Translations under genes and position numbers: made by a program | Assembly: GCF_013344685.1 (NCBI RefSeq) | Contig: NZ_CP050137.1 | Coordinates: forward strand, 3,031,001 to 3,095,000 | From: Sphingomonas sp. CL5.1 | GTDB taxonomy: Bacteria; Pseudomonadota; Alphaproteobacteria; Sphingomonadales; Sphingomonadaceae | Direction: 5' to 3' | DNA length: 64,000 nt | Notes under the pieces: model-generated | What the model was told of the DNA's origin: nothing | What the model saw: only the letters and a program-made list of their open reading frames with translations | The model's database searches: none | In this document: piece after piece, positions 701 through 4,093 of the stretch | Layout of the letters: each line of letters starts with the position of its first letter | How positions within the stretch are numbered: the stretch's first letter is position 1

Positions 701-1396
701 TCAGGCGGCCAGCGCCGCCTCGGCCTGCGCGAGCGCCCTGGGGTCGTCCACGTCCAGCCACCAGGCGTCGCCGATATCGGTGACGCGCGCGCCGCCAGTC
801 GTCGCCAGCGCCTCAACCCCGGCGGAGATCGACCCGCTGCCCCCCGCCGCGATGCTGGCGCGCAGCGCGTCGTGGAAGCGCCCGTCGACCGCGAACACGC
901 CGCAATCGAACGCATCGTAATCGGGGAGATGCTTGCCGATCGCGACGATCCGGTCGCCGTCGGTGCGCACGCGCGTCACGTCGTCGAGATCGACCAGCGG
1001 ATTGTCGAGCCGCCGGTCGATCGCCAGCGTCAGCGGCGCATTCGGGGCGGCGATGGCGCGCGCGACGATCGCCGGATCGAACAGATGGTCGGCCATCATC
1101 AGCAGATGCCGCTCCGGCCCGATCGCATCGGCGCCGGTCAGCACCGAATGGCCGTTGGCGAGCGACCAGTCCGCCGTGCGGACGCAGGCGATCGCAGGGT
1201 CGAGCGCGCGGAGAAAGCTCTCCAGCGCCTCCGCCTCATGCCCGGTGACGACGGTGAAGCCGCTCGCGCCGCCGGCCCGCGCCGCCGCGATGACGCGTGC
1301 GATCAGCGGCACGCCCGCGACGGGGGTCAGCGGCTTGGAGGGGGACACCGCGCGCAGCCGGCTACCATAGCCGGCCGCGACGATGAGCGCCTTCAC
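701..1396 (-). CDS. Nucleotidyltransferase, probable CTP:inositol-1-phosphate cytidylyltransferase
   Basis: A 231-aa sugar-nucleotidyltransferase-fold enzyme. The N-terminal AAGYGSRL loop (residues 7-14) and the KP pair (21-22) form the NTP-binding signature; NGHS (81-84) and MADH (101-104) mark the base- and metal-binding region. The segments DCGVF (164-168) and WWLDVDDP (212-219) resemble those I recall from archaeal and bacterial inositol-1-phosphate cytidylyltransferases, which make CDP-inositol from CTP and inositol-1-phosphate. It starts with GTG and overlaps the stop of the upstream inositol-1-phosphate synthase by 4 bp (GTGA), so the two are translationally coupled; this context is the strongest functional argument. 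A phosphocholine- or hexose-1-phosphate nucleotidyltransferase is the alternative. Family certain; substrate inferred. Confidence 0.82.
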   Translation of the reverse strand: MKALIVAAGYGSRLRAVSPSKPLTPVAGVPLIARVIAAARAGGASGFTVVTGHEAEALESFLRALDPAIACVRTADWSLANGHSVLTGADAIGPERHLLMMADHLFDPAIVARAIAAPNAPLTLAIDRRLDNPLVDLDDVTRVRTDGDRIVAIGKHLPDYDAFDCGVFAVDGRFHDALRASIAAGGSGSISAGVEALATTGGARVTDIGDAWWLDVDDPRALAQAEAALAA

Positions 1397-2499
1397 TCGG
1401 CGGCGAGCCGCGCGTCGGCGTGGATGAAATCGTCGGTCATCTGCGCGGCGATATCGTCGGTATATTGCTCCGGCGGGTGCTTGCAGAAGAAGGAGGACGG
1501 GCCGGTCAGCGCGCCGGCGAGGCCGCGATCGAGCCCGAGCTTGCAGCAGCGGATCGCATCCACCACCACGGCGGCGGAATTGGGGCTGTCCTCCACCGAA
1601 AGGCGCAGTTCGAGGTTCATCGGCACGTCGCCGAACAGATTGCCCTCAAGCCGCAGGAAGCACAATTTGTTGTCATGCAGCCACGGGATGTAATCGGACG
1701 GGCCGACGTGGATATTCTCGTCCGCCAGCCGCTCCGCGAGCACGGCCTGCACGGCCTCCGTCTTCGATTCCTTCTTGCTCGACAAGCGGTTGCGATCGAG
1801 CATGTTCATGAAATCGGTGTTACCGCCGGTGTTGAGCTGATAGGTGTGATCGATCGTCACGCCGCGGCTCTTGAACAGGTTCGACAGGACGCGGTGCACG
1901 ATCGTCGCGCCGACCTGCGCCTTCACGTCGTCGCCGATGATCGGCAGCCCGGCCTTGGTGAAGCGCGCTTCCCATTCCGGGTTGGACGCGATGAACACCG
2001 GCATGCAGTTCACCACCGCAAGGCCCGCCTCCAGCGCGCATTCCATGTAGAATTCGGTCGCCTGCTGGCTGCCGACCGGCAGGAAGTTGACGAGCACCTC
2101 GGCGCCGGAATCCTTCAGCGTCCTGATGATCGACGCGCGATCGGTGTCCGGCGTGCCGTCCACCTCGAAACCGCGATCGTTGGCGACGGTGAGCATATGG
2201 TCGGCCACGCCGTCCAGCTTCGCGCCCATCTGCACGACCGTGCCGGTCTTCGGCACGTCGGCGTGGAACACCTTGGTGCAGTTCGGCTTGGCGAAGATCG
2301 CCTCGCCCAGGTCCAGCCCGACCTTGCGCGAATCGACGTCGAACGCGGCGACGAACTCGATATCGCTGACCTTGTATCCACCGACATCTTCATGGATCAG
2401 CCCGTGGGCGGTGTTGCCGGCGGTGTAGTGATATTTGCCCTGCACCAGGCTGCTCGCGCAGTTGCCGACCCCGATGATGGCGACCTTGATCCTCGACAT
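1393..2499 (-). CDS. ino1: myo-Inositol-1-phosphate synthase
   Basis: A 368-aa NAD-dependent enzyme that converts glucose-6-phosphate to inositol-1-phosphate. The length matches the short actinobacterial-type synthase rather than the roughly 500-aa eukaryotic form. The Rossmann signature GVGNCASSL is at 10-18, the catalytic-region motif GDDVKAQVGATI at 189-200, QLNTGGNTDF at 221-230, SKKESKT at 241-247 and SVEDSPNSA at 301-309. It is first in a minus-strand pair with the cytidylyltransferase and diverges from the CDP-alcohol phosphotransferase at 2622. The 122-bp gap between them has a TTGACA-like element on the minus strand (2578 to 2573) that could be a -35 box. The enzyme is uncommon in Gram-negative bacteria. 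Confidence 0.95.
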   Translation of the reverse strand: MSRIKVAIIGVGNCASSLVQGKYHYTAGNTAHGLIHEDVGGYKVSDIEFVAAFDVDSRKVGLDLGEAIFAKPNCTKVFHADVPKTGTVVQMGAKLDGVADHMLTVANDRGFEVDGTPDTDRASIIRTLKDSGAEVLVNFLPVGSQQATEFYMECALEAGLAVVNCMPVFIASNPEWEARFTKAGLPIIGDDVKAQVGATIVHRVLSNLFKSRGVTIDHTYQLNTGGNTDFMNMLDRNRLSSKKESKTEAVQAVLAERLADENIHVGPSDYIPWLHDNKLCFLRLEGNLFGDVPMNLELRLSVEDSPNSAAVVVDAIRCCKLGLDRGLAGALTGPSSFFCKHPPEQYTDDIAAQMTDDFIHADARLAAE

Positions 2500-2621
2500 T
2501 AAACCCCCGCTTTGCCGGCTGCGGCCGGCGGATGACCGAATAGCTTCAGTGTCGTGACAGATGCGCGACGCCTGTCAAGCGATGGCGGCACCTGTTATTC
2601 GGCGGCAAAGGGGACTTCGCC

Positions 2622-3500
2622 TTGGAATCGAATGAATTGCCGGCGGCTGTTACGGGAAAGCCGCGTGAATTGCAGGGTTTCCTGAACCGGATCGCCTATC
2701 ATCCCGCGGCGCGGCGACTCGCGATCCTGCTCGCCCGGACGCCGGCGACTCCGAACATGGTTTCGGTTTTCGGCGCGATGATGGTGTGCGCGACGGGGGT
2801 GCTTTACGCGCTGGTCGGGACGCCGGTCGCGATCGGGATCGGCTTCGCGCTGCATCTGCTGTGGCATGTCGTCGACGGCGCGGACGGCGATCTCGCGCGG
2901 ATGACCGGGCGCGCCAGCCCGCGCGGCGAGGTGGTGGACGGCCTGTGCGACTATGGCGGCCATATCGTGCTCTACCTGCTGCTCGGCTACGCGCTCCAGC
3001 AGGTGTTCGGGCCGTTGATCTGGGTGGTCGTGGTGGGCGCGGGCGTATCGCGCATCGTTCAGTCGGTGTTCGCGGAAAGCTCGCGGCGGAGCTACCAATG
3101 GTGGGTCTATGGCGTGCCGTGGATCCAGAACAACCGCGCCGCCGGATCGACCGGGATGGGCGGGGCGCTGGCGCGCTTCTACCTCAAGGTCTCCCATGCC
3201 GTCACCGGGCCGACCGAGACGATCAACGCGCTGGTGGCGAGCGCCGAGCCGGACCCGGCCGAGCGACAGCGGATCGCGCGGCTGGCGAAGGAAACGGGAC
3301 GCCGGACATTGCTGCTTCCCGGCTTGCTCGGCGCCAATCCGCGCACGATCCTGCTGGGCCTCAGCATGATCGCGGGATCGTCGGTGTGGTTCTTCCTGAT
3401 CGAACTGACATTGCTCAACATCGTGCTGGCGGTTGCGATCGTGCAGCAACGGATCAATTGCACGCGCCTGATGGCGCTGATCGCGCGCGGAAGGGATTGA
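2622..3500 (+). CDS. CDP-alcohol phosphatidyltransferase family membrane enzyme, probably using CDP-inositol or inositol-1-phosphate
   Basis: A 292-aa integral membrane protein with the complete CDP-alcohol phosphotransferase motif: D85, D88-G89, A92-R93, G102, D106 and D110. These residues bind two divalent metals and the CDP-alcohol. About five or six hydrophobic helices follow residue 45; an extra cytoplasmic stretch (about 170-225) precedes two C-terminal helices. The start is a TTG at 2622 following GGGGAC. It lies back to back with inositol-1-phosphate synthase and its coupled cytidylyltransferase, so the likely reaction is transfer of phospho-inositol to an alcohol, giving di-inositol-phosphate-type solutes or an inositol lipid. 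A phosphatidylglycerophosphate or phosphatidylserine synthase is less likely given this context. The acceptor cannot be told from sequence. Confidence 0.85.
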   Translation: MESNELPAAVTGKPRELQGFLNRIAYHPAARRLAILLARTPATPNMVSVFGAMMVCATGVLYALVGTPVAIGIGFALHLLWHVVDGADGDLARMTGRASPRGEVVDGLCDYGGHIVLYLLLGYALQQVFGPLIWVVVVGAGVSRIVQSVFAESSRRSYQWWVYGVPWIQNNRAAGSTGMGGALARFYLKVSHAVTGPTETINALVASAEPDPAERQRIARLAKETGRRTLLLPGLLGANPRTILLGLSMIAGSSVWFFLIELTLLNIVLAVAIVQQRINCTRLMALIARGRD

Positions 3501-3562: not shown

Positions 3563-4093
3563 ATGATGCGCATGATCGTGGTGATGGCCGGGGCGCTGGC
3601 GCTTGCGGCCTGTGGCGAGGGCGGCGTGGAGACGGGTGCGCCCGTGGCGGGCGGCGCGCATGCGGTGGCGCTACTCAAGCTGGCGAACGGCGCCGACGCC
3701 GGCCGCGCGACCGCGACCGAGGTGGCCGGCGGGCTGCGCGTGACGGTCGATGCGAAGGGCCTGCCGCCCGGCACGCACGGCGCGCATGTCCACACCACCG
3801 GCCGCTGCGATGCCCCTGATTTCGCCAGCGCCGGGGGCCATTGGAACCCCACGAGCATGAAGCACGGCTCGATGAACCCGCAGGGGCCGCACGAGGGCGA
3901 CCTGCCCAATCTGGTGATCGACACCGGCGGCCGCGGCACCGTCGCGGCGACCATTCCCGGTGCGACGATGGCCGGTCTGCTCGACGCCGACGGCGCCGCG
4001 CTGGTGATCCACGCCAATGCCGACGACCTGATGACCGACCCGGCAGGCAACAGCGGCGCGCGGATCGCCTGCGGGGTGTTTCAGGCCGGCTGA
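3563..4093 (+). CDS. sodC: Cu/Zn superoxide dismutase, lipoprotein form
   Basis: A 176-aa envelope enzyme that dismutates superoxide. A short signal peptide ends in the lipobox LAAC (Cys17), so the mature protein is probably lipid-anchored. The metal ligands are visible: GAHVH (H75, H77), GGHWNP (H93), PHEGDLPN (H110, D113) and VIHANADD (H150). Cys82 and Cys170 form the conserved disulfide, and the end reads GNSGARIACGVF with the active-site Arg. The start is set by AAGGGAGACGG just upstream of tandem ATGs at 3563 and 3566. A stress-type promoter precedes it. The last 13 bp overlap the convergent acetyltransferase gene. High confidence. Confidence 0.95.
   Translation: MMRMIVVMAGALALAACGEGGVETGAPVAGGAHAVALLKLANGADAGRATATEVAGGLRVTVDAKGLPPGTHGAHVHTTGRCDAPDFASAGGHWNPTSMKHGSMNPQGPHEGDLPNLVIDTGGRGTVAATIPGATMAGLLDADGAALVIHANADDLMTDPAGNSGARIACGVFQAG

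Follow-up and report, generated by a model that had tools for sequence, protein, structure and literature searches.

We characterized a three-gene, 2.8-kb module at positions 701-3500 of a 64,000-nucleotide stretch of the Sphingomonas sp. CL5.1 genome (contig NZ_CP050137.1, positions 3,031,001 to 3,095,000; the whole stretch is called the window here). The genes encode a myo-inositol-1(3)-phosphate synthase (MIPS), a nucleotidyltransferase resembling CTP:L-myo-inositol-1-phosphate cytidylyltransferase (IPCT), and a CDP-alcohol phosphotransferase (CDP-AP). On the basis of sequence comparisons, we lean, if only slightly, toward a model in which a Kennedy-type route encoded by the module yields an inositol-phosphate lipid, the acceptor most likely being (dihydro)ceramide. 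MIPS enzymes convert glucose-6-phosphate to L-myo-inositol-1-phosphate, and this would be the first step. The coupled IPCT would then join L-myo-inositol-1-phosphate and CTP to give CDP-inositol and pyrophosphate, as its IPCT relatives, the gene coupling and gene fusions suggest, and the membrane CDP-AP would transfer the phosphoinositol group of CDP-inositol onto a membrane lipid at its free hydroxyl. If that lipid is ceramide, inositol-phosphoceramide would be the direct product, and no phosphatidylinositol donor, AUR1-like transferase or HAD protein would be needed. That Alphaproteobacteria carry out such direct synthesis, from CDP-inositol and ceramide by a dedicated CDP-AP, is a tentative proposal that falls somewhat short of an even chance.

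The interpretation that CDP-inositol would be the intermediate is well supported by gene context. Within Sphingomonadales, the three genes form a module that is conserved and accessory. A search across the order, suggested in an earlier sequence-only reading of this DNA, gave strong IPCT matches (E <= 1e-35, window genome included) in 110 of 396 genomes of Sphingomonadales and in 92 of 151 genomes of the genus. A Novosphingobium IPCT profile matched 118 of 195 Novosphingobium genomes (E <= 1e-30), and class-wide matches at E <= 1e-15 were found in 97 of 385 genomes; outside Sphingomonadales, only 12 class genomes reach 200 bits, the next match having 120 bits. MIPS adjoins IPCT in 127 of 133 loci, lying less than 400 bp away on the same strand in 80/80 Novosphingobium-type loci (the best 80 of 146), 19/20 loci from the genus and order, 12/13 from the family, and 16/20 from families f2, f5, f7 and f8. 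A CDP-AP scoring 50 bits or more falls within the stretch compared in 61/80, 20/20, 13/13 and 15/20 loci of these sets, respectively. Because loci were picked for having IPCT or CDP-AP, these counts show linkage, not prevalence. The arrangement is found again in many genera and is therefore not due to chance.

Nineteen Novosphingobium-type loci have no CDP-AP in the stretch compared. Nine of these end at a contig end at most 1.3 kb from IPCT; for the other ten, where the stretch compared extends 8 kb on the MIPS side, a whole-genome search puts the CDP-AP 63-145 bp past the edge of the stretch or overlapping the edge, about 8-9 kb from IPCT. The distance is nearly equal, about 8 kb, in L138, L139, L142, L162, L170, L173, L174, L176, L182 and L187 (G and L numbers denote our genomes and loci), as if a single insertion had been inherited by ten Novosphingobium-type genomes. 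One further locus (L036) has IPCT and CDP-AP, with no MIPS match found on its 9.8-kb contig. On a megaplasmid of Sphingomonas parapaucimobilis, CDP-AP, MIPS and an "NTP transferase" form a tight operon with 1- and 4-bp overlaps. In one Novosphingobium genome (G688:C2:639691-640382), IPCT appears as two overlapping matches, indicating a decayed copy or a sequencing error, and a small secreted-looking protein is encoded near the module mostly in Novosphingobium (L091, L093-L097, L108; Pfam gave DUF2141 for the single copy scanned).

MIPS-IPCT fusions are the strongest indication that IPCT may act on the MIPS product. Among 12 class genomes outside Sphingomonadales, with lengths taken from stop to stop, MIPS and IPCT form one frame of 633-702 aa in G1001, G904, G765 and G822 (loci L221, L222, L227 and L231), and IPCT and CDP-AP form one frame of 457-489 aa in G1126, G773, G985 and G984. 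The four MIPS-IPCT genomes are alphaproteobacterial and represent two clades: in a tree of 51 sequences, the G1001 fusion IPCT falls, with that of G1109, inside the window's set of 19 (97/91), and the other three fall in a second clade (100/99). Since the fusions lie in two separate clades, MIPS and IPCT were probably fused twice. The clustering with MIPS and the fusions make inositol-1-phosphate the likely IPCT substrate. We found no mention of MIPS-IPCT fusions or of the linkage to sphingolipid genes in the literature consulted, which was mostly open-access and searched without specific attention to fusions.

The relatives of the IPCT-like protein point the same way. Pfam assigns it to NTP_transf_3 (52.3 bits; cut-off 27), and its top three matches in the PDB (phmmer) are the IPCT entries 2xme, 4mnd and 4jd0 (E 9e-17 to 6e-16, 62-65 bits), followed by GlmU at E 4e-8. 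An IGK-x8-D-x-G-x-F segment is common to the window protein, 2xme and 4jd0. R13, K21 and D103 are invariant in a 29-row alignment; by eye, R13 and D103 align with an Arg and an Asp of 2xme and 4jd0, and K21 aligns with a Lys of 2xme but is displaced by two positions in the alignment with 4jd0. We read these three residues as the counterparts of R16, K26 and D112 (catalytic Arg, Lys and metal Asp), which are conserved in CpgD (PMC12275187). We consider it very probable that the window IPCT makes CDP-inositol. The sequence-only reading had joined the three genes in one pathway, and clustering and fusions argue that they do belong together, IPCT most likely making CDP-inositol and CDP-AP then an inositol phosphodiester.

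The window MIPS matches Pfam Inos-1-P_synth (120.6 bits; cut-off 27) and is the sole PF01658 match in its genome. Its best PDB match is the inositol-3-phosphate synthase 1gr0 (E 1.7e-117), which we take to be the M. tuberculosis protein; the second is 6k96, a five-membered-cyclitol-phosphate synthase (E 3e-55), and 7nwr, presumably BT_1526, matches at E 1e-9 (phmmer). MIPS genes of the same type lie on plasmids of Roseomonas mucosa and Paracoccus yeei (L293, L292), beside genes for glycosyltransferases, a TIGR04290 methyltransferase and a histidine phosphatase. No nucleotidyltransferase or CDP-AP is listed beside them in the stretch shown, for which the gene table is incomplete, and the neighbors suggest a different inositol product. 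A plasmid MIPS of Sphingomonas sp. LK11 is likewise without nucleotidyltransferase and CDP-AP. As plasmid MIPS genes are seen without the two partners, MIPS alone was rejected as a marker of the module.

The CDP-AP matches Pfam CDP-OH_P_transf (40.7 bits; cut-off 22) and carries the complete motif D-x2-D-G-x2-A-R-x8-G-x3-D-x3-D (D85, D88, G89, A92, R93, G102, D106 and D110), invariant in a 25-row alignment, bearing out the earlier description of a divergent CDP-AP with all metal-binding residues. The window genome has only three CDP-APs; the two outside the module, presumably PgsA and PssA, sit on long tree branches. The best PDB match of the window protein is archaeal AF2299 (E 3e-10). In the CDP-AP tree, AF2299, a partial chain covering 45% of columns, and the IPCT-fused CDP-APs form a separate branch (97/88) that includes neither the window type nor the SPT-linked protein of G1109 (SPT, serine palmitoyltransferase). 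This branch holds the IPCT-partner CDP-APs of G904, G765, G816, G773, G985, G984 and G1126; the tree covers neither the CDP-APs of G1001, G822, G1108 and G937 nor the incomplete L107 row. A second CDP-AP (families F5/F6; for example L035:4203-5396) lies beside the module in several genera and is not seen in the window genome. It has an extra N-terminal part of about 190 aa that looks like a decayed nucleotidyltransferase domain.

The sequence-only reading had left the product as "a solute or an inositol lipid". We narrow this choice: we think it very likely that the product is a lipid, and, given a lipid, ceramide appears the better candidate for the acceptor than diacylglycerol. This preference draws on linkage to genes for serine palmitoyltransferase (SPT), a hydroxylase and a GNAT protein, and on the CDP-AP tree. 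The GNAT protein we take to be bacterial ceramide synthase (bCerS), partly from its nearness to SPT; Pfam finds Acetyltransf_1 in one of three copies and no family in two. In the window genome, SPT is clear (826 bits; cut-off 670; NCBIfam gives the same name), an acyl carrier protein (ACP) gene, identified by reading, adjoins it, and the bCerS-like GNAT lies 5.6 kb away. The closest linkage is seen outside the order. G1001 has, on one strand, SPT (truncated at the contig end), FA_hydroxylase, GNAT, the MIPS-IPCT fusion and Gly_transf_sug. A stretch of 14 kb in G1109 holds SPT, ACP, CDP-AP, IPCT, MIPS, Gly_transf_sug, GNAT and FA_hydroxylase, with a 4-bp IPCT/MIPS overlap and an SPT that is genuine by NF047599 (667 bits; cut-off 500). 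Looser linkage was found in 2 of 80 Novosphingobium-type loci (L152, L186), where an SPT start (N-terminal part) lies 7.8 kb from IPCT, and in a single congeneric genome (L102), where GNAT lies 6.3 kb from IPCT. Runs of the close kind (L259:2402-8206 and L265:2546-15844) combine SPT, FA_hydroxylase and GNAT with inositol activation genes and Gly_transf_sug, a gene content reminiscent of glycosylated inositol-phosphoceramide synthesis in fungi and plants.

Some genomes provide a contrast to these runs. In G904, G765, G822, G773 and G985, the best scores on the SPT model are 212-247 bits, close to the 191 bits that the 5-aminolevulinate synthase of the window genome scores on the same model, and GNAT is absent; GNAT is present in all 12 other genomes of this search, including G1109, G1001 and G1126. 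Six of the seven class genomes with an AF2299-like IPCT-partner CDP-AP have no convincing SPT. The reading we draw is that AF2299-like CDP-APs would mostly serve a non-ceramide acceptor, and window-type CDP-APs ceramide. An oxoamine-synthase gene 5.5 kb from IPCT in G816 was rejected as SPT, scoring 163 bits, below the 191 bits of the window-genome 5-aminolevulinate synthase. On a G1126 contig (C106:6517-20490), SPT and GNAT occur together with a second, weaker nucleotidyltransferase (96 bits with the IPCT profile), perhaps a CpgD-like headgroup gene.

A number of observations weigh against this model. For the IPCT, the equivalog model NF041135, a two-domain Thermococcales protein, gives 103 bits, far under its cut-off of 580, and all narrower NCBIfam models touched by the three window proteins are under cut-off, including TIGR03450 (mycothiol INO1) on MIPS at 430 bits against 638. 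The tree of 51 puts the solved 2xme and 4jd0 outside the window IPCT group; they join further nucleotidyltransferases from the order (91/89), on long branches that the program marks as uncertain, so that the protein is identified as an IPCT from pairwise similarity and gene context. IPCT-fold enzymes can also use other esters, as the accessible text on CpgD indicates (PMC12275187). With respect to linkage, CDP-AP and IPCT are far apart in G040 and G072, and no CDP-AP was found within the stretch compared in 5 of the 20 loci of other families. As for the acceptor, SPT is 0.9 Mb from the module in the window genome. SPT is found in 389 of 396 order genomes and the module IPCT in 110; because SPT is nearly universal in the order, its presence says nothing on the acceptor, and it was rejected as an uninformative predictor. 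Close SPT linkage occurs in only 2 of 12 class genomes, one with its SPT cut by the contig end, so that the acceptor evidence rests on few independent genomes. The SPT-linked CDP-AP of G1109 is not firmly tied to the window group of 14, the branches being open or weak, and the fused CDP-AP of G1126 is AF2299-like although that genome has SPT and GNAT. The second CDP-AP joins the AF2299 branch on a long branch, yet its host sphingomonads have SPT (one sequence, L035, from five loci tried). Finally, because 7nwr matches the window MIPS, the BLASTP search of Heaver et al. might have flagged such a MIPS in Novosphingobium acidiphilum if that species carried one, which calls for caution in linking the module to its lipid.

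The same CDP-inositol chemistry could instead have diacylglycerol or an ether glycerolipid as its acceptor and so yield phosphatidylinositol or an ether analogue, a serious alternative, if less likely than not. It has published precedent in CDP-inositol-based dialkylether glycerophosphoinositol lipids, cited in PMC9246714; such a route is reported for Rhodothermus marinus. PMC9246714 also proposes that a CDP-AP makes PI-DAG from CDP-inositol. The choline/ethanolaminephosphotransferase 8gyw is also a distant PDB relative of the window CDP-AP (E 0.005). Related IPCT modules do occur in genomes without convincing SPT, but the CDP-APs placed from these genomes are AF2299-like, and the gene runs with SPT, hydroxylase and bCerS-like genes point to a sphingolipid.

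The inositol lipid might instead be only a first step, subsequently glycosylated and flipped to serve as the anchor of a surface glycolipid or capsule, which would be compatible with either ceramide or diacylglycerol. An inositol-capsule link in B. thetaiotaomicron appears in the available text of PMC9246714. In other genera, loci lie beside genes for group 1 glycosyltransferases, Wzi, presumed capsule ABC export, a Wzx-like flippase and Gly_transf_sug, but none of the nine scanned neighbors in the window genome is a glycosyltransferase, capsule or flippase gene, and Pfam assigns no family to F11, the only capsule-export-like protein tested. We regard an anchor role as unlikely. By eye, capsule export genes were seen beside the module in L032-L034, L099 and L100, and a flippase-like gene in L113; Wzi was assigned by Pfam in L039, with relatives in L038, L040, L043, L046 and L048.

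Synthesis of the soluble osmolyte di-myo-inositol phosphate, with the CDP-AP joining CDP-inositol and a second inositol phosphate, is highly improbable. IPCT and DIPPS are an archaeal pair, AF2299 is the best solved match of the window CDP-AP, and NF041135 touches both window proteins; however, its scores (103 bits for IPCT, 23.6 for CDP-AP) are far under 580, the window CDP-AP is apart from AF2299 and the IPCT-fused CDP-APs in the tree, and relatives lie beside sphingolipid, glycosyltransferase, Wzi and flippase-like genes. Sphingomonads are, moreover, mesophiles. Least probable, by a hair, is that the nucleotidyltransferase activates another phosphate ester (such as phosphoglycerate, as Caulobacter CpgD does) with MIPS a mere neighbor: the best structural match of CpgD is the T. 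maritima IPCT (24% identity, the three residues above conserved; PMC12275187, seen in part) and the solved IPCTs lie apart from the window IPCT in our tree, the rows of which exclude CpgD, but 127 of 133 loci have MIPS adjoining IPCT, and four genomes encode the two as one protein.

The features of the module are given in Table 1. As noted earlier for this DNA, the MIPS and IPCT genes are coupled by a 4-bp overlap: the two open frames share positions 1393-1396, with GTGA common to the MIPS stop and the IPCT start (...GAGTGAAGG...). Compared with the near relative L101, differences at codon positions 1/2/3 number 16/13/79 for IPCT, 15/10/95 for MIPS and 40/27/107 for CDP-AP, a pattern indicating purifying selection on all three protein-coding genes. 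One flank holds the E1 alpha, E1 beta and E2 genes of a 2-oxoacid dehydrogenase. The other encodes a Cu/Zn superoxide dismutase (window 3566-4093, same-strand and downstream of CDP-AP), a GNAT, a hemerythrin-like protein, a Crp-type regulator, NAD kinase and a MoaA-like protein. None of the nine neighbors scanned is an inositol-related gene.

Table 1. Features of the inositol module in the window
Feature	Position	Strand	Remarks
IPCT-like CTP:L-myo-inositol-1-phosphate cytidylyltransferase	701..1396	-	231 aa, GTG start; Pfam, PDB relatives, alignment, tree
myo-inositol-1(3)-phosphate synthase (MIPS/Ino1)	1393..2499	-	368 aa, ATG start; Pfam, NCBIfam, PDB relatives
intergenic region between divergent transcripts	2500..2621	.	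promoters presumed only
CDP-alcohol phosphotransferase (CDP-AP), proposed CDP-inositol:lipid inositolphosphotransferase	2622..3500	+	292 aa, TTG start; complete metal motif

If the acceptor is ceramide, inositol-phosphoceramide synthesis would use at least one more chemical route, besides eukaryotic transfer from phosphatidylinositol and the Bacteroides pathway. In some lineages, a single run of genes would then cover base synthesis, hydroxylation, acylation and headgroup activation (by a single MIPS-IPCT protein), together with a glycosyltransferase. Such a run would be a bacterial counterpart of the systems for glycosylated inositol-phosphoceramides in fungi and plants, and the SPT-linked runs would let the whole pathway be tested.

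Several known systems invite comparison. Phosphatidyl- and archaetidylinositol-phosphate synthases (NF045883, NF040950; 6h53, 6wm5) resemble the window CDP-AP in fold and metal motif, and use CDP-diacylglycerol or CDP-archaeol as the donor. The window protein is unlike them in scoring 27.1 and 40.2 bits with these models, under the cut-offs of 170 and 180. The Archaeoglobus and Thermotoga IPCT and IPCT/DIPPS proteins (2xme, 4mnd, 4jd0) share the IPCT domain with the module, but the window genes are separate, the CDP-AP is of another branch, and the IPCT does not group with the solved IPCTs. A similar logic underlies the ether phosphoinositides of Rhodothermus marinus, for which Jorge, Borges and Santos in 2015 reportedly described activation of the MIPS product by CTP and headgroup transfer by a CDP-AP to a dialkylglycerol; their abstract is said to have already pointed out alphaproteobacterial homologues. 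The window module would proceed in the same way up to headgroup transfer to a lipid, and would differ in its acceptor, for which ceramide is favored over a dialkylglycerol.

The sequence-only reading implied that this logic was new outside thermophile solute synthesis. This is not supported: Heaver et al. (2022; PMC9246714) refer to lipids of the dialkylether glycerophosphoinositol type made from CDP-inositol (Jorge et al., 2015; doi 10.1111/1462-2920.12734) and propose a putative alternative Bacteroidetes cluster in which genes for a nucleotidyltransferase, a CDP-AP and a HAD protein lie beside MIPS. The module is like this cluster in bringing together MIPS, nucleotidyltransferase and CDP-AP, and PI-dihydroceramide (PI-DHC) is the lipid of interest there. 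In that proposal, the HAD protein converts PI-DAG to PI-DHC, whereas no HAD domain was found in the nine window neighbors, the part of the genome that was scanned. Caulobacter CpgD, an IPCT-fold phosphoglycerate cytidylyltransferase of a ceramide headgroup pathway (PMC12275187, PMC13228409), resembles the window IPCT in fold, CTP use and proposed ceramide headgroup role and differs in substrate, and the available portions of these papers mention no link between CpgD and MIPS.

Two lipids reported from sphingomonads may bear on the module. Novosphingobium acidiphilum has a PI-DHC-like lipid without homologues of either Bacteroidetes cluster, and Sphingomonas paucimobilis has a tentative phosphohexose-DHC headgroup, as far as the accessible text describes them (PMC9246714). 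With IPCT in 118 of 195 Novosphingobium genomes and the operon of S. parapaucimobilis, the module offers candidate genes for both, and a direct route could explain the PI-dihydroceramide of N. acidiphilum, reported without a known pathway; this species is not among the best 80 of our 146 loci. The CDP-inositol lipid logic is thus not new in itself, and the module is a variant of a route known from other bacteria, to which our analysis adds its breadth in Sphingomonadales, two kinds of gene fusion, and genomic evidence suggesting a ceramide acceptor.

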